This document shows positions 3,492 to 10,084 of a stretch of DNA of 64,000 bases, piece after piece; the stretch's first letter is position 1, and the number at the start of each line of letters is the position of its first letter. Both the position numbers and the translations under genes were made by a program. The DNA is taken from the NCBI GenBank assembly GCA_024742735.1, contig JANSXV010000003.1, positions 372,001 to 436,000 of the forward strand, in the 5' to 3' direction. Origin of the DNA: Alphaproteobacteria bacterium. Its GTDB lineage: Bacteria > Pseudomonadota > Alphaproteobacteria > Caulobacterales > Maricaulaceae. Below the pieces are notes generated by a model that was given only the letters and a program-made list of their open reading frames with translations, did not search any database and had not been told where the DNA came from.

Positions 3492-4286
3492 TTAATCCCG
3501 CGCGGCGTGGGCCGCCGCTGCGAGCTGCCCGGCCAGATGCAAGGCCTGGTCCACACCCTCTTTGTCCAGCGCATCCACGATCGCCGAACCGACCACGACG
3601 GCGTCGGCGACCTTGCCGATCTCGGCGGCGCGCTCGGGCGTCTTGACCCCGAAGCCGACCGCCACGGGCAGGCCGGAGGCCTTCCGCACCCGCGCCACCG
3701 CCGCAGCGATGTCGCCGGTCTGACCCGAGCCCGCGCCCGTCACGCCGGTGGTCGACACGTAATACACGAAGCCCGAGGCGTGAGTCACGACTTGCGGCAG
3801 GCGCGCATCGGAGGTGGTCGGCGCGGCCAGGCGCACGAAGGCCAGGCCCCGGTCATGGAGCGCGGTGCGCAGCTCGGCGTCTTCCTCGGGCGGAATGTCC
3901 ACGCAGATCACCCCGTCCGCCCCGGCCTCGGCCATGGCTTCGGCGGCTTTGGCGTAGCCCATGGAGAAGAAGGGATTGGCGTAGCCCATGAGGACCACCG
4001 GCGTATCGGCATGGGTCTCGCGGAAACGCCTCACCAGGTCGAGCACGCCTTTGAGCGTCATGCCGCCCTCCAGCGCCCGGATCGCGGCGCGCTGGATGGT
4101 CGGCCCGTCGGCCATCGGATCGGTGAAGGGCACGCCCAGCTCGATGACGTCGGCGCCGCTGTCGGCGAGGCCGCGCATCATGGAAAGCGTCGTGTCCGCG
4201 TCCGGGTCGCCGGCCATGACATAGGCCACGAAGCCGGCGGTGTTGGTCTGCGCGAGGCGGTCGAAAGTAGGGGTGAGGCGGGTCAT
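3492..4286 (-). CDS. trpA: tryptophan synthase alpha chain
   Basis: TrpA cleaves indole-3-glycerol phosphate to indole and glyceraldehyde-3-phosphate in the TrpA2B2 complex. The catalytic pair is present as Glu49 (VIELGVPF) and Asp60 (DPMADGPTIQ), matching the E. coli numbering. The phosphate-binding loops GFGVKTPE and VVGSAIVDAL are near the C terminus. Length (264) is normal. In most relatives trpB ends directly before trpA; here 4.4 kb of opposite-strand genes separates them, so trpA-accD-folC needs its own promoter in the 4287-4417 interval. Confidence 0.97.
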   Translation of the reverse strand: MTRLTPTFDRLAQTNTAGFVAYVMAGDPDADTTLSMMRGLADSGADVIELGVPFTDPMADGPTIQRAAIRALEGGMTLKGVLDLVRRFRETHADTPVVLMGYANPFFSMGYAKAAEAMAEAGADGVICVDIPPEEDAELRTALHDRGLAFVRLAAPTTSDARLPQVVTHASGFVYYVSTTGVTGAGSGQTGDIAAAVARVRKASGLPVAVGFGVKTPERAAEIGKVADAVVVGSAIVDALDKEGVDQALHLAGQLAAAAHAARD

Positions 4287-4417
4287 TCCATCGGCTTAGC
4301 GAAATTCAGTCCCCCGCGCCAGCGGGCGCGGCTGCGTGCGAATATTCAAGATTGCATCTTGACTCCTATATGCGCCTCTCTCACGCTCTAACCTCAACCT
4401 TTCAGGAGGAGTTGGGT

Positions 4418-4624
4418 GTGAGCGACGACATTAGAAAGCAACTGGAAGCGGTTCTGGCCGATACGCCGGTGGGCGAAGAGCTGCCCCCTGAAGCCCTCTC
4501 GAGAATCGTCGGCGGTTTCGGATCCCAGGACGATTCGATCGGTGGCGGAAACGGTGATGGCGCAAACCTGAACCACCATCTGAGCGACGGCCCTTACAGC
4601 AAGGCCTGGGGCCGGTCGACCTAG
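4418..4624 (+). CDS. putative RiPP (cyclophane/triceptide) precursor peptide
   Basis: This 68-residue peptide is the first gene of a four-gene operon. I chose the GTG at 4418 because a perfect AGGAGG lies 8 nt ahead (4404-4409); an in-frame ATG at 4370 lacks a ribosome site. The first 33 residues look like a leader: acidic, helical, with EELPPEALSRIVGG ending in a Gly-Gly at 32-33. The rest is Gly/Asp/Asn-rich and ends with GPYSKAWGRST. Two Ar-x-x units (YSK at 60-62, WGR at 64-66) and a His-His at 53-54 are candidate sites for three-residue cyclophane formation by the adjacent radical SAM enzyme. The function is inferred from context; I recognise no family by sequence. Confidence 0.72.
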   Translation: MSDDIRKQLEAVLADTPVGEELPPEALSRIVGGFGSQDDSIGGGNGDGANLNHHLSDGPYSKAWGRST

Positions 4625-4630
4625 CGCCGG

Positions 4631-5869
4631 TTGAAGCAATCGCCCGGTCCGGCTCCGCTTGCTGCGCGGGGCTGGACCTTACTCACAGCGGCCGGACAGC
4701 CCGTGGCCCAGCTCGACGTCGATCATCTCCAACTGGTTCTAAAGGTGTCGGAACGCTGCAATATCGCGTGCACCTACTGCTATTTCTTCTTCAAGAGCGA
4801 CCAGTCCTACAGGGAGCATGACGCGGTCCTTTCAGCGGCGAATGTGGAGGACGTCGGCGCGTTTCTGCAGCGCGAGATCGCCCGGCATGCGATCAAGCGC
4901 GTTACAATCGCCCTGCATGGCGGCGAGCCCCTGCTGATGAAAAGGGCGCGATTTCGCGCTTTGCTTGAATCGCTAACGCAAGCCTGCCGAACAATCAGGC
5001 TGGATCTGACGGTCCAGACCAACGCCATGCTGATCGACGATGACTGGATCGAACTGTTCGGCGTCTTCGGCGTACGGGTCGGCGTCAGCCTGGACGGCCC
5101 GCCGGAGGCCAACGACCGGGCGCGCATCGACAAGAAGGGCCGCGGCACGCATGCGCGATCCATCGCCGGATTGCGCCAGGTGGTCGAGGCGGCGCGTGAA
5201 GGCCGGATCCCCGAGCCGGGCATATTGTGCGTCATGGATCCAGGCGCCGATCCTGTCGCAGCCTATCGACATTTCGTCGACGATCTGGGTGTTCGCCATC
5301 TTGATTTTCTGTTCCCGGACGATGACCACGACAGCTTCGACCGCTCCCGGGCCGGCGAGTTCGGAGCCTATCTGGTCAAGGTGTTCGAGACGCGCCTGAG
5401 GCGCGGAGACAAGGACGTGCGCATACGCGTCCTTGATCACCTGCAGTTTCTTTTGAACCGCACTCCGGCGGCGCGTGCGGACGATCGAGCTGCCCAGCGC
5501 CGCGTCAAAGTCGCCACGATCAGCTCCGATGCGACCTTGGGCATCGACGACATCATCCGCAGCGTTGCGCCGGAGCGCTTCAACGCGTTTCGTCCTGTGT
5601 CGCGGACCAGCCTTGAAGCGCTGTTCTCCGGCGCTGAAGGTCACCGTCTCCGCGAAGCCGAATCCCGCCGGCCTGCGGCGTGTTCAGACTGCCTGTGGCG
5701 GGACGTATGCGGCGGCGGCGTCCACGTCATTCACCGCCACAGCCTCGCGCGCGGTTTCGACAATCCGTCGATCTACTGCGAGGACATAAAGATCATCCTG
5801 GGCCGGATGGTACAGGTGATGCACGCGGCCGGCGTGTCCTATGACGCCCTGCTGGAGAATTTGGCGTGA
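4631..5869 (+). CDS. radical SAM/SPASM peptide maturase, cyclophane-forming type
   Basis: This 412-residue protein has the SAM cluster motif CNIACTYCYFF (Cys43, Cys47, Cys50), a GGEPLL motif and VSLDGPPEANDRARID. A C-terminal SPASM-like cluster follows: Cys351, Cys354, Cys360 (CSDCLWRDVCGGG) and Cys383. The stretch HRHSLARGFDNPSIYC and the DATLGIDD segment are hallmarks, from memory, of the FxsB/GrrM/YhhB enzymes. These join an aromatic ring to the beta-carbon of the residue two positions later. It starts with TTG at 4631, six bases after the precursor stop. Substrate specificity is inferred from the neighbouring peptide. Confidence 0.85.
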   Translation: MKQSPGPAPLAARGWTLLTAAGQPVAQLDVDHLQLVLKVSERCNIACTYCYFFFKSDQSYREHDAVLSAANVEDVGAFLQREIARHAIKRVTIALHGGEPLLMKRARFRALLESLTQACRTIRLDLTVQTNAMLIDDDWIELFGVFGVRVGVSLDGPPEANDRARIDKKGRGTHARSIAGLRQVVEAAREGRIPEPGILCVMDPGADPVAAYRHFVDDLGVRHLDFLFPDDDHDSFDRSRAGEFGAYLVKVFETRLRRGDKDVRIRVLDHLQFLLNRTPAARADDRAAQRRVKVATISSDATLGIDDIIRSVAPERFNAFRPVSRTSLEALFSGAEGHRLREAESRRPAACSDCLWRDVCGGGVHVIHRHSLARGFDNPSIYCEDIKIILGRMVQVMHAAGVSYDALLENLA

Positions 5870-7496
5870 GCGTGCGGGCGTCATGTTGATCTGGGCGGCC
5901 CTGGCGTACGTGGCCGTCGCCGCGTCGCCCCCCCGCGCCGAGATCGTGATCCGGCCGGCCGCGGAGGGCGCTGCAGACGGCTGGCACAGCGTGACCTATC
6001 TCCTGCCGAGCGACGACGTCGGCGCGCTCGCCATCTATGACATGTCCGAACCCGCCGACCACTGTCCCGACATCGAATACGAACTGCTCGACATAAAAGG
6101 CGCACGGACGCTGCCGGACGCCCCGTCCGGCGCGCTGGTCCATCTGCGCCCTGAAGGGGGCGAGGCCTGGGTGCGGATCGCGTTGCAGGTCCGCATGGCC
6201 GCCCCGGAGGCCGGTCTGTCGCCAGCCAATACGGTTCAATGCGATCTTCTGCTGCAGTCCGGCGACCTGACGGTTCTGGAAGGCAAGGCCCTGCTTCCCG
6301 CGCCGCGTCCGATCCGGCCGGACGGCGCGCCTTTCCGTTTCGGTGAAGCCCGGATACGCGTTGACCACACAGGCCCCGCCATCTCCACGCTCGGCGCGCC
6401 TGACAGCCTGGCCGGGTGGACGGTGAACGCTCTGGATGAGGCGCGTTTCGCCTACTTCGTCATCGGCGCTGCCGCAGCTCGGAACTCGGACGGCGGCGGC
6501 GTCCGTCACTTGCCGCTCGACGCCTACGCGGCCGGGCGCTTCGCCCATCTGGGGCACGATCTGCATCAGGCCGCTGCCAGCTTGGAGAGGCTGTTCGGCG
6601 CGCCGGGCCCGGACCAATACCTCGTCCTCACCCTCACCGGAGAAGGGGCCGACTTCGCCGACTACACCGGGACCGCAAGACCCGGCGGCCAACGCCTGGT
6701 CATCGGGCCCGGCGCACCAGATGACGCGGTGGTGGCGCTGTCAGCCCATGAGCTGGCTCACCATTGGGATATTGCGCGGTTCCGGCAACTGGACCAGAGC
6801 GAGGATCTGACCTGGATCAGAGAGGGGCTGGCCGAATTCATCGCCCACGCCGCCCTCGTCGAGACCGGCGCGCTCGGCCCTGAGGCGCTGGTGCGCCGCG
6901 CCAACCTGGCGCTGTACAATCGCGACCTGCCCGACATGCATGGCGTGGCGGCCTATGATGAGGGTTATCTCGCCTGGTTCGCCCTCCACGAGTCGTCCGG
7001 CGGCGGGGATGAGTTCGCCCGCTTTCTTGCCGCCCTCATCGCCCCCGGCCAGCCGCCCCTGACGCGCGATGGCTTCTACCAGGCCGCTCGCGACGCCGGA
7101 CTTTCCACGCCGGCGAGCGGCCGCTTTGATCCGCAGGCGGATCTGCCGTGTTCGGTTCGCGCGGGACAGACGCAGTTCGACCTGCGGCTGGGCGTCTGGC
7201 CGGCGTACGACAGTGGGCTGGTCTTCGACGACGAGCGGCCCGGGCAGATTCAGCACGTCCGCGCCGGTTCGGCGGGCGACCGGGCCGGGATGCGCGCTGG
7301 CGATCAGGTCGAGCAGATCGTCACCGGCGGCTACGGGCGCGTGTTCGAAGCCTTAAACCTGCGCCTGAGCGACGGCCGGTCCGTGACGTTCATGCCCCAG
7401 GGTCCGGCGCGGGCGGCCTATCTGCAATACATTGAAGCGCCCGCCGGCGCCGCAGCCGGATACGCCCCGGCATCGGAGCTCCCATGCCAGGACTAG
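5841..7496 (+). CDS. exported HExxH metallopeptidase with C-terminal PDZ domain
   Basis: This 551-residue protein begins with a basic segment, a hydrophobic stretch (VMLIWAALAYVAVAAS) and a likely signal-peptidase site near PPRA-E, so it should act in the periplasm. The zinc site is HELAHHWD (His303, Glu304, His307) with Glu328 in TWIREGLAEF. That makes it a gluzincin of the M1/M61 kind, and M61 enzymes likewise carry a C-terminal PDZ domain, here about residues 445-535 (GQIQHVRAGSAGDRAGMRAGD). The start at 5841 overlaps the radical SAM gene by 29 nt; an ATG at 5883 is the alternative. In this operon it could trim the leader or core peptide, which is inference. Confidence 0.75.
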   Translation: MTPCWRIWRERAGVMLIWAALAYVAVAASPPRAEIVIRPAAEGAADGWHSVTYLLPSDDVGALAIYDMSEPADHCPDIEYELLDIKGARTLPDAPSGALVHLRPEGGEAWVRIALQVRMAAPEAGLSPANTVQCDLLLQSGDLTVLEGKALLPAPRPIRPDGAPFRFGEARIRVDHTGPAISTLGAPDSLAGWTVNALDEARFAYFVIGAAAARNSDGGGVRHLPLDAYAAGRFAHLGHDLHQAAASLERLFGAPGPDQYLVLTLTGEGADFADYTGTARPGGQRLVIGPGAPDDAVVALSAHELAHHWDIARFRQLDQSEDLTWIREGLAEFIAHAALVETGALGPEALVRRANLALYNRDLPDMHGVAAYDEGYLAWFALHESSGGGDEFARFLAALIAPGQPPLTRDGFYQAARDAGLSTPASGRFDPQADLPCSVRAGQTQFDLRLGVWPAYDSGLVFDDERPGQIQHVRAGSAGDRAGMRAGDQVEQIVTGGYGRVFEALNLRLSDGRSVTFMPQGPARAAYLQYIEAPAGAAAGYAPASELPCQD

Positions 7497-8668
7497 ACGC
7501 CCTCATCGCCCCTTTGACGCGCGAAGCGTTTTTCGACCGCCATCTGGGGCGCGAACACCTGATCAGCACGGTGGACGCCGCGCTGCCGGGCTGGCCGGCG
7601 TTCAATCACGCCCTGGAGCGCGCCACGGTCGAAGACCGCCGCCGGTTCGGCTTTTCGCGCGAGCGCGATGTCGAGTTCGATCCCGATGATATCTGGCTGC
7701 GTAATGGCGGCCTGGCTTTGCACAAGCTTCGCGCCCGCATTCGCGACGGGCATACCTTCATCTTCAACAGCTTCAATCTTCATTGCGGCGCCTTCTCGGC
7801 TCTGGAGCGCGACATTCATGACCTCTTCGCGGAGTCGGTGAACGTGAACTGCTATCTCTCCGTGCGACCCCGGATCGGGTTCGGGCCGCACTGGGATGAT
7901 CACGACGTCTTCGCCATACAGCTGGAAGGCCGCAAGTACTGGGCGCTTTACGGGTTCACGGACGCGGCGCCGCTGGATCGGGAGCGGTGCACGCCTCTGC
8001 CCGACGGCGCCAAGCCCGTCTGGGAAGGATTCCTGGAGAAAGGTCAATGCCTGTATATCCCGCGCGGATGCTGGCATTCGGCGGTGTCAACCGGCTCGCC
8101 CTCTCTGCATGCGGCATGCAGTCTAAACGGCGTGACCGGCGCCGACGTTCTGGAGTGGCTCGCCGCCTGCGCGCGTGATCATCCTGCACTTCGCGCCATG
8201 CTGCGGCCGGGGCCGCCGGGCCATGGCGACCATGCGCGCGCCGCCCGGGAGATTTGCGACTTCCTGACCCGCCAGGCGACCCCGGATGTGATCGAACGAT
8301 TCCTCAAAGACCGCGCGATGCAAGCTGAGCCGCGCCAGATCGCAGGTTTGCCGGACGCTCTCATCGCCCCACAAACTGTGTCGGATGGGGTCGAGATTCA
8401 TTATTTCGGCCCGGCGCAGCCGGAGATATGGCGCGACGGCGAGCAGCTCGTTTGCGTGATCGGGGGCGTGGAGGTCCGGTTCGCCCCGGCTTGCCGGGAC
8501 GCGCTGTGCCGCCTTGCTGAACATGGCGGCGCGCCCTTCGCAGCGCTGCGCGACGCAGCGCCGCAGGCGCACGTGTCAGACGTCGCCGAGTTGGCCGAGG
8601 CGCTGGAACGTGCCGGCGCAGCGGTCATGCTGCCAGGCTCGCTGACCGGCGTCGACGCGGCTCAGTAA
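7484..8668 (+). CDS. JmjC/cupin-8 type Fe(II)/2-oxoglutarate oxygenase
   Basis: This 394-residue protein has a JmjC-like core similar to the ribosomal oxygenase RoxA/YcfD. IGFGPHWDDHDVFAIQLEGR supplies His136 and Asp138 of the metal triad and a basic residue for 2-oxoglutarate, and YIPRGCWHSA supplies His198. A C-terminal helical domain follows, as in RoxA relatives. It starts 13 nt before the peptidase gene ends, so it is translationally coupled. In the RiPP setting it most likely hydroxylates the precursor or the cyclophane; the NCBI family YhhC is an oxygenase with this role (recalled, not checked). A stand-alone ribosomal hydroxylase is the alternative, but the operon argues against it. 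Confidence 0.78.
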   Translation: MPGLDALIAPLTREAFFDRHLGREHLISTVDAALPGWPAFNHALERATVEDRRRFGFSRERDVEFDPDDIWLRNGGLALHKLRARIRDGHTFIFNSFNLHCGAFSALERDIHDLFAESVNVNCYLSVRPRIGFGPHWDDHDVFAIQLEGRKYWALYGFTDAAPLDRERCTPLPDGAKPVWEGFLEKGQCLYIPRGCWHSAVSTGSPSLHAACSLNGVTGADVLEWLAACARDHPALRAMLRPGPPGHGDHARAAREICDFLTRQATPDVIERFLKDRAMQAEPRQIAGLPDALIAPQTVSDGVEIHYFGPAQPEIWRDGEQLVCVIGGVEVRFAPACRDALCRLAEHGGAPFAALRDAAPQAHVSDVAELAEALERAGAAVMLPGSLTGVDAAQ

Positions 8669-8730: not shown

Positions 8731-9942
<1,212 letters not shown>

Positions 9943-9962
9943 GTCGTCACGAACCTGCGCAG

Positions 9963-10084
9963 CCCCCCACCCCGGCCCTCCCCCGAGGGGGAGGGTGAGA
10001 TGCGGCGGCGTTTGAGCCATCAAGGGTCGAAGGGCGAAATGCGCCCTTCTCCCTCCCTTTCAAGGGGAGGGCTGGGGTTGGGTG
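9963..10084. repeat. intergenic inverted repeat between trpF and trpB
   Basis: C-rich arm at about 9964-9983 (CCCCCACCCCGGCCCTCCCC) and G-rich arm at about 10065-10083 (GGGGAGGGCTGGGGTTGGG) are imperfect reverse complements. Each is followed or preceded by its own short hairpin. It is a diverged relative of the element at 190-327. It lies in the probable trpF-trpB transcript and could fold there. Confidence 0.6.

Follow-up and report, generated by a model that had tools for sequence, protein, structure and literature searches.

A four-gene operon at a trpA-trpB junction of a Maricaulaceae genome that probably serves the biosynthesis of a triceptide-type peptide

Which peptide is made by an operon that joins a small precursor gene and a radical SAM gene to the genes of a metallopeptidase and a 2-oxoglutarate oxygenase, and what would the two additional enzymes contribute? 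This question is raised by positions 4418-8668 of a 64,000-nucleotide (nt) stretch of contig JANSXV010000003.1, here called the window (positions 372,001 to 436,000 of the forward strand; assembly GCA_024742735.1, Alphaproteobacteria bacterium, family Maricaulaceae). Four open reading frames (ORFs), encoding precursor, radical SAM protein, peptidase and oxygenase in this order, are read from the plus strand; 6 nt separate the first two, and overlaps of 29 nt (radical SAM/peptidase) and 13 nt (peptidase/oxygenase) follow. A first-pass annotation made from the sequence alone had described the region as a one-strand operon, with gaps or overlaps of at most 29 nt, for a ribosomally synthesized and post-translationally modified peptide (RiPP), and this layout was confirmed. 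The features referred to below are as follows.

4404..4409, plus strand: Shine-Dalgarno-like AGGAGG, 8 nt 5' of the GTG start of the precursor gene, read directly
4418..4624, plus strand: precursor, 68 aa, GTG start; homologue at L022:6254-6451 (Oceanicaulis sp. HTCC2633)
4517..4525, plus strand: possible third motif, aromatic-x-Ser/Thr right after Gly-Gly (Phe34-Gly-Ser36), read directly in two sequences, weak
4595..4615, plus strand: core motif Tyr60-Ser-Lys62-Ala-Trp64-Gly-Arg66 (YAKAWGR in HTCC2633), with candidate cyclophanes Tyr-x-Lys and Trp-x-Arg
4631..5869, plus strand: radical SAM/SPASM maturase of the three-residue-cyclophane kind, 412 aa, start TTG 4631 or GTG 4703
4757..4780, plus strand: CxxxCxxC cluster motif (C43, C47, C50), read directly, invariant in three aligned homologues
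5841..7496, plus strand: M61-like zinc metallopeptidase, 551 aa, with signal-like N-terminus and PDZ-like C-terminal part
6747..6824, plus strand: HELAH (H303, E304, H307) and third-ligand candidate E328, invariant in four aligned peptidases
7484..8668, plus strand: JmjC_2 (NO66/MINA/RoxA-type) Fe(II)/2-oxoglutarate oxygenase, 394 aa, HxD at 136-138 and H198

The same four genes in the same order are present at another site in Oceanicaulis sp. HTCC2633 (genome G007), with overlaps between genes 2 and 3 and between genes 3 and 4. Identities between the two sets amount to 41% (precursor; BLASTP E 3e-15, single comparison), 46% (radical SAM protein), 27% (peptidase) and 38% (oxygenase). Since the whole set recurs in order with precursors that are 41% identical, the arrangement is not due to chance. 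Sequence comparison shows the presence of the four genes, the families to which they belong and the conservation of the whole set in HTCC2633. The small ORF, whose conservation beside the maturase had been named as a test of the RiPP assignment, is retained in this relative. The GC content of the operon is 66.6% in the window genome and 39.6% in HTCC2633, as compared to 65% at the trp locus of the latter; with the gene set being the same, this implies that the set moved and was kept. We consider it probable that the operon directs the biosynthesis of a triceptide-type RiPP related to the XyeA/xenorceptide peptides, by the four-step mechanism proposed below.

The radical SAM protein connects the operon to cyclophane-forming enzymes. 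Its best three NCBIfam matches, XyeB (TIGR04496, 298.3 bits, cut-off 450), YhhB (NF041707, 242.4 bits, cut-off 445) and FxsB (TIGR04269, 218.9 bits, cut-off 370), are all cyclophane-forming peptide maturases (E 6.5e-89 to 9.9e-65); an anaerobic sulfatase maturase model came fourth (131 bits, cut-off 349), and GrrM/OscB (TIGR04261) scored 80.4 bits at a cut-off of 310. Among the matches listed (best 25 of 75 models at E<=1) no cut-off was reached, and because every listed score is below its cut-off, the protein is an equivalog of none of these families. The predicted CxxxCxxC radical SAM/SPASM maturase of the cyclophane type is borne out by this ranking, and the top models are peptide maturases rather than members of a non-peptide family; the suggested search against YhhB, FxsB and GrrM did place cyclophane families first, without any of these three cut-offs being reached. 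Pfam Radical_SAM was matched at 47.2 bits (cut-off 29.5), the best match in the Protein Data Bank (PDB) was 9gm3, 'ChlB radical SAM domain' (2.6e-31), above sulfatase-maturating enzymes, and searches of PHROGs and PADLOC returned general radical SAM families and viperin models, respectively. Two further motifs, read directly, are CSDCLWRDVC and HRHSLARGFDNPSIYC. Neither TTG 4631 nor GTG 4703 is preceded by a clear ribosome site. The HTCC2633 protein scored 345.4 bits against the XyeB model, with its cut-off of 450.

The precursor consists of a leader that runs to a double glycine (Gly32-Gly33, 4511-4516), as already recognized for this 68-residue peptide, a Gly/Asn-rich spacer of 26 residues and the C-terminal core YSKAWGRST. 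The HTCC2633 spacer has 23 residues and its core reads YAKAWGRT, so that both precursors carry Y[SA]KAWGR near the C-terminus. No NCBIfam or Pfam match was obtained for the window precursor at E<=1, and the XyeA precursor model TIGR04495 matched neither peptide at this limit. In a comparison set of 16 hand-picked XyeA-like small-ORF ends, 11 cores have WVN followed by Ala/Ser, an aromatic residue, any residue and Arg/Lys/Asn, e.g. WVNAFAR; the window core matches this register, with Tyr-x-Lys replacing Trp-x-Asn. The pattern aromatic-x-x-Ala-aromatic-x-Arg/Lys arose in 0.17% (window) and 0.32% (HTCC2633) of shuffled spacer plus core sequences, values that serve only as a guide because the pattern was picked after the sequences had been seen. 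Passages of the review PMC11002830 describe XncB as linking Trp to Arg or Asn, YhhB as linking Tyr or His to Arg, and MscB as linking Phe to Ser. By such precedents we infer ring chemistry at Tyr-x-Lys and Trp-x-Arg of the predicted core, and a third ring is possible at the aromatic-x-Ser/Thr motif after Gly-Gly, for which the HTCC2633 counterpart of Phe34-Gly-Ser36 is Tyr-Asp-Thr. Judged by its sequence, the locus has the two marks of a triceptide system, a putative maturase of the three-residue cyclophane-forming enzyme (3-CyFE) kind and, beside it, a precursor with aromatic-x-x motifs (YSK, WGR). The window spacer holds His53-His54; His was ruled out as the common hydroxylation site of both operons, the HTCC2633 precursor being devoid of His.

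In a quick tree of 79 radical SAM rows, from which L082 and L101 had been dropped by a 195-bit limit, the window and HTCC2633 proteins form a pair (99) that lies outside both the XyeB clade and a clade associated with JmjC genes and Tyr-x-Gln small ORFs. The pair returned at 100/100 in a careful 42-row tree, whose rows were hand-chosen with 37 of the 79 left out and whose groups were named after the first tree had been seen. Approximately unbiased (AU) tests on the 42-row tree rejected a single M61-linked clade (p 3.1e-5) and a single JmjC-linked clade (p 2.9e-40); a clade uniting the pair and 14 rows of the XyeB clade was not rejected (p-AU 0.459), all these tests being indicative only because long branches are present.

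For the formation of the product we propose four steps. In the first, the radical SAM enzyme, using the double-Gly leader, would form two cyclophanes linked through Ala63, one by bonding Tyr60 to the Lys62 beta carbon and the other by bonding Trp64 to the Arg66 beta carbon. In the second, the JmjC_2 protein would hydroxylate one residue of the core, with Lys62 and Arg66 as the likeliest sites, a step for which BipG acting on ornithine (Orn) provides a precedent (excerpts of PMC12707348), and it may hold the leader via a beta3-alpha3 C-terminal part. A peptidase-ABC transporter with an HlyD protein, encoded elsewhere in the genome, would then cleave after Gly-Gly and export the core. Finally, a periplasmic M61-like peptidase would trim the Gly/Asn-rich spacer and release the ring-locked C-terminus, thereby filling the place that a clan-AA aspartyl protease holds in many XyeB-like operons. 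Rings, hydroxylation, cut site and the target of the product are all predicted here from sequence and precedent.

The oxygenase matched PF08007 JmjC_2 at 84.3 bits, well above the cut-off of 22, and H136, D138 and H198 are invariant in eight aligned oxygenases, in agreement with the His/Asp/His triad originally read. In sequence searches NO66 and MINA both scored about 1e-12, the L16 arginine hydroxylase (RoxA/YcfD) was a weaker match at 3e-4, and a fold search with a low-confidence model (mean predicted local distance difference test score, pLDDT, 51.9) gave NO66 first (3.3e-14). PHROGs returned three unnamed families; no NCBIfam match was found at E<=1, and the presence of a YhhC model in NCBIfam was not established. 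In the model, which is of low confidence in this region, the C-terminal part is predicted as three strands followed by three helices. Portions of PMC12710340 require this strand-then-helix order of RiPP recognition elements, report that fish and algae have fusions of such domains with PF08007 domains, and place the nearest bacterial JmjC homologues in RiPP-like contexts. On the predicted fold, reading the C-terminal part as the winged helix in which NO66-type enzymes end would be equally good as reading it as a RiPP recognition element. A careful tree of 29 JmjC rows pairs the window and HTCC2633 oxygenases (100/99), outside the JmjC clade of the Tyr-x-Gln loci.

The peptidase had been annotated as an exported HExxH protein with a PDZ domain. 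HELAH and E328 are read directly, and a profile of the window peptidase and two homologues had as its best PDB match entry 7xyo, 'Aminopeptidase M61' (5.6e-23). We take 7xyo to be MfuP; a literature search for the code gave no match. Pfam support falls short of this, with PF05299 M61 at 20.2 bits (cut-off 22) and PDZ_6 at 17.5 bits (cut-off 27), and export is suggested by eye: from the longer start the N-terminus, MTPCWRIWRERAGVMLIWAALAYVAVAASPPRA, is Sec-signal-like with a basic n-region, and that of the HTCC2633 peptidase looks Sec-like as well. The HTCC2633 peptidase had no M61 match at E<=0.1, only M1 at 19.1 bits (cut-off 27.7). The M61 cut-off was passed by the peptidases of an Aquidulcibacter metagenome-assembled genome (MAG) (30.0 bits) and of locus L063 (24.3 bits). 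When the peptidase model was used in a fold search, nothing scored at E<=0.001, and an M1 aminopeptidase came nearest (0.033). The four-row peptidase profile matches 114 of 200 order genomes at 1e-5, in many over part of the profile only. In a quick tree of 36 peptidase rows, in which long branches were flagged, the window and HTCC2633 proteins fall into one group (100) with three peptidases from the same bacterial family, and the Aquidulcibacter protein is placed elsewhere, among Caulobacterales M61-like proteins. Genes looking like grpE by eye lie near two of these three family peptidases, and none of the three regions holds a match to the maturase or JmjC profiles.

A lack of a transporter, as initially claimed, applies within the operon; as a statement about the system it is weak. 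In HTCC2633 an ABC/HlyD pair on the opposite strand begins some 2.5 kb beyond the oxygenase gene, and its ABC protein is one of two C39 peptidase matches in that genome, as compared to one in the window genome. Homologues of the pair are encoded in the window genome on contig C19 (ABC 75%, HlyD 63% identical), in genes about 2.7 kb apart, between which lies a further small ORF without an NCBIfam match.

L128:7656-7883 (contig C19), between the HlyD and peptidase-ABC genes: bacteriocin-like peptide, 75 aa, double-Gly, Ala/Gly-rich

A transporter specific to operon carriers was rejected, the ABC protein being present also in three genomes of the genus without the operon. A link of the C19 HlyD/ABC proteins to the operon is plausible.

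Protease genes are a recurrent neighbour of related maturases. A genome-contig scan confirmed 92 relatives, of which the best 80 loci were surveyed, and downstream genes were chained for the 58 best-scoring entries, two being duplicates (L022 = L024, the HTCC2633 locus, and L023 = L034, the Aquidulcibacter MAG G039). Clan-AA protease groups occur in at least 15 of the 58 chained loci (a group of about 300 aa in 13, a second group in 2), the chain counts being lower bounds because many chains are short or empty. Their clan-AA identity rests on one member per group by Pfam, and their N-termini are hydrophobic by eye. The clan-AA gene lies directly 3' of the radical SAM gene in 11 of these 15 loci and after transporter genes in four (Photorhabdus, Yersinia). 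HlyD-like and peptidase-ABC-like groups were found in 15 chains each, in overlapping, non-identical sets, with one of each identified in L037. For the 80-locus survey, M61 and JmjC profiles were built partly from these same proteins. An M61-like peptidase with HExxH directly follows the radical SAM gene in three of 80 loci (L024, L034 and L063), a JmjC_2 gene stands beside it in seven, and M61 and JmjC_2 occur together only in L024. At L063 the adjoining peptidase has no signal sequence by eye, and a second M61-like protein on the other side has one. The Rickettsia MAG locus L059 was dropped as an additional case since its M61-like ORF has no HExxH.

Radical SAM matches at E<=0.001 were found in 26 of 61 genomes (window genome and 60 relatives), and at 1.5e-78 or better only in the window genome, HTCC2633 and the Aquidulcibacter MAG. 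Wider sampling gave seven of 385 class genomes (1e-40) and seven of 398 phylum genomes (XyeB model, 1e-50), the window genome included in each. Within 1.5 kb either side of the radical SAM gene in these genomes, M61 was present only in the window genome and the Aquidulcibacter MAG, and JmjC in none, a JmjC gene in third place, as in the window, being out of this range; wider regions of G329, G134, G346, G626, G709 and G702 held neither. A plasmid search (E 1e-40) found a radical SAM relative in four of 72,556 records, all below 60% identity. The operon was not described, by title, in the open-access literature searched, where M61, radical SAM and RiPP came together only in PMC10885120; a published survey may already list the clade. 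The four-gene combination was found in only one other genome. The earlier proposal of a possibly new subtype is supported.

Among known systems the XyeA/XyeB triceptides of the xenorceptide type (Xenorhabdus, Photorhabdus, Yersinia, Serratia, Sodalis) come closest. Shared are the nearest radical SAM family, the Gly-Gly leader end, the aromatic-x-x-Ala-aromatic-x-Arg register and a protease gene in the operon, the last trait being taken from the present survey and not from a published definition. In contrast to them, the window precursor has a 26-residue spacer after Gly-Gly and two predicted C-terminal rings instead of three, an M61-like peptidase replaces the aspartyl protease, a JmjC protein is added, transporter genes are missing from the operon, and neither the XyeB cut-off nor a TIGR04495 match is reached. 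The Aquidulcibacter operon likewise has an M61-like peptidase gene next after the radical SAM gene; its radical SAM protein, unlike that of the window, just reaches the XyeB cut-off (450.3 bits), its peptidase has a lipobox-like N-terminus by eye, and its precursor ends in GWVNSFAKWCLRF. No JmjC gene was found there, on a 5.9-kb contig that ends shortly after the peptidase gene. MfuP of Myxococcus fulvus is likewise an M61 peptidase in a RiPP cluster, but of a lanthipeptide without radical SAM enzyme, and the available text of PMC10885120 has it cutting inside the modified core with the leader not removed. BipG, a JmjC protein and the ornithine gamma-hydroxylase of biphenomycin (part of PMC12707348; BpmG predicted in part of PMC12257519), resembles the window oxygenase in being encoded in a RiPP operon together with a radical SAM enzyme that forms rings and differs, according to the same excerpts, in acting on Orn after an arginase and alongside a B12 radical SAM enzyme.

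Several findings weigh against a triceptide operon working in this way. The radical SAM protein stays 152 bits below the XyeB cut-off, and the core has neither the third ring nor the C-terminal Phe, Leu or Ile of XyeA-like cores. M61 and PDZ matches are both below their Pfam cut-offs, the structure models of peptidase and oxygenase are poor (mean pLDDT 49.8 and 51.9), and MfuP cuts a lanthipeptide core rather than removing a leader (excerpt of PMC10885120); because of this M61 precedent, cutting between the rings is possible, and a third ring after Gly-Gly would speak against simple spacer trimming. JmjC_2 proteins are common, with an eight-row profile matching 57 of 200 order genomes at 1e-15 and two more such proteins present in the window genome, so that the family alone is uninformative on the substrate. 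The operon has no transporter gene, the HlyD/ABC candidate in the genome flanks a bacteriocin-like peptide of its own, and a 75-76% identical ABC protein occurs in four of the 14 genomes of the genus other than HTCC2633, namely the window genome and three that lack the operon, in one of which the ABC gene has an internal stop. The full set was found in only two genomes.

YhhABC pairs a radical SAM enzyme with an oxygenase, and this pairing, together with cyclophane formation by the radical SAM enzyme, led to the filing of the locus with YhhABC in the first-pass annotation. A system of this type, with Tyr/His-Arg rings, the oxygenase as YhhC counterpart and an incidental peptidase, could draw on YhhB as second-best family, the Tyr-x-Lys of the core and His53-His54 of the spacer. 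It appears very improbable, as XyeB scores 56 bits above YhhB, the core is in XyeA register, the HTCC2633 precursor has no His and the peptidase is conserved in HTCC2633; membership was rejected at 242 of 445 bits for YhhB with XyeB higher, precursor and oxygenase being without an NCBIfam match at E<=1. We hold it unlikely, at somewhat better prospects, that the M61-like peptidase has no part in maturation and either destroys re-entering product as self-protection or acts as the peptide's target or its regulator. Its divergence (27% identity to HTCC2633), its grouping with stand-alone peptidases of the same bacterial family and the cutting of MfuP within a modified core (PMC10885120, in part) are in line with such a role, against which stand the position of its gene mid-operon, overlapping both neighbours, and the M61-like genes in the slot after radical SAM on other tree branches (L034, L063).

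If the operon makes a triceptide-type peptide, the product is most likely antibacterial or signalling. Xenorceptides are products of XyeA-type genes. Parts of a review (PMC12971899) present xenorceptides as BamA inhibitors active against Gram-negative bacteria, and by this kinship a BamA-binding beta-strand mimic is the leading guess for the product, an analogy that may hold but is on balance doubtful; a 2025 paper (PMC12257519, in part) calls triceptide bioactivities not yet elucidated. A physiological peptide, for metal handling or signalling rather than an antibiotic, is slightly less probable still: no gene of evident immunity or transport role is in the operon and the third ring and hydrophobic C-terminus of XyeA-like cores are absent, yet the sporadic spread and, in HTCC2633, the place of the operon in an island that also carries a HyoA-like defence gene and, by eye, recombinase-like genes suit competition or defence cargo. 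In its boldest form, which we regard as speculative and improbable, the triceptide interpretation would define a new subtype and a rule, namely that for the last maturation step, outside the cytoplasm, XyeB-like maturases have time and again recruited an exported protease of unrelated origin (clan-AA or M61); the M61 protein of the Oceanicaulis lineage, derived from a stand-alone Maricaulaceae peptidase, would release a Tyr-x-Lys-Ala-Trp-x-Arg peptide, locked by two rings and hydroxylated by the JmjC protein, which would close the BamA gate by a new mode. As a scaffold the predicted product is close to and distinct from the xenorceptides, with putative Tyr-x-Lys and Trp-x-Arg rings, a one-Ala joint and an extra hydroxylase. 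The whole set fits in 4.3 kb and can be moved to Escherichia coli, and two unrelated protease families in the same slot offer a natural comparison that makes the role of the protease in XyeB-like operons testable.

The operon is flanked by trpA (3492-4286, minus strand) and trpB (8731-10023, minus strand), named by eye and from homologues. Aligned ends of trpB and trpA are 7 nt apart in two genomes (HTCC2633 and G008) and 3 nt apart in G005; distances of 144 to 685 nt were measured in G002, G014, G003 and G010. In G009, G011, G001 and G012 trpA was not found inside the fetched 13-kb stretches. The trpA-trpB junction is variable across the genus, with the window operon as one of its fillings. 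A promoter and terminator scan gave one promoter-like and four terminator-like sites, with means of 0.4 and 2.5 in shuffles. The HTCC2633 operon lies downstream of the recombinase-like genes (two scanned, no NCBIfam match) and is followed by a gene for a Fic-like protein, by the ABC/HlyD pair and by a NACHT gene of HyoA-like type. The product of this last gene matches the NACHT antiphage protein HyoA in the C-terminal half of HyoA at 788 bits (cut-off 1200); the coordinates of these island parts are L022:196-5295 and L127:1456-9518.

Small ORFs with Tyr-x-Gln (some His-x-Gln) repeats, e.g. NYTQ, NYHQ and NYDQ, stand beside radical SAM and JmjC_2 genes in Nonomuraea, Phenylobacterium and Sphingopyxis:

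L067:7563-7904
L069:2692-3129
L070:7758-7982
L072:7581-7967
L088:7521-7934

In these loci the JmjC_2 gene comes immediately 3' of a gene for a cyclophane-type radical SAM protein. They resemble the window operon in this pairing and differ from it in radical SAM clade, JmjC clade and small ORF; they are a separate, consistent radical SAM and JmjC class. At a radical SAM and JmjC locus of Enhygromyxa no Tyr-x-Gln small ORF was recognized. One BLAST group of proteins beside radical SAM genes in Parvularcula and Sphingomonas comprises L033:9361-10575, L033:15138-16259 and L065:9206-10381, and the L065 member matches the aKG-HExxH peptide beta-hydroxylase domain (56.7 bits), a further oxygenase type near such maturases.

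Repeated GGNFVSAPP-like units (Phe-x-Ser), possibly of another triceptide type, were seen in small ORFs of gammaproteobacterial MAGs:

L043:6059-6322
L044:2202-2450
L048:7599-7847
L049:7620-7919
L055:7638-7919

Cyclophane-type radical SAM genes occur also in MAGs named Wolbachia (L054), Chlamydiales (L031), Rickettsia (L059) and Legionellales (L063), the Wolbachia small ORF carrying the motifs WSK, WSR, WSA and WTR. In Nitrospirillum, a small ORF with terminal Phe-Asp-Leu-Ser/Thr repeats (L029:7742-7978) lies just 5' of a radical SAM gene.

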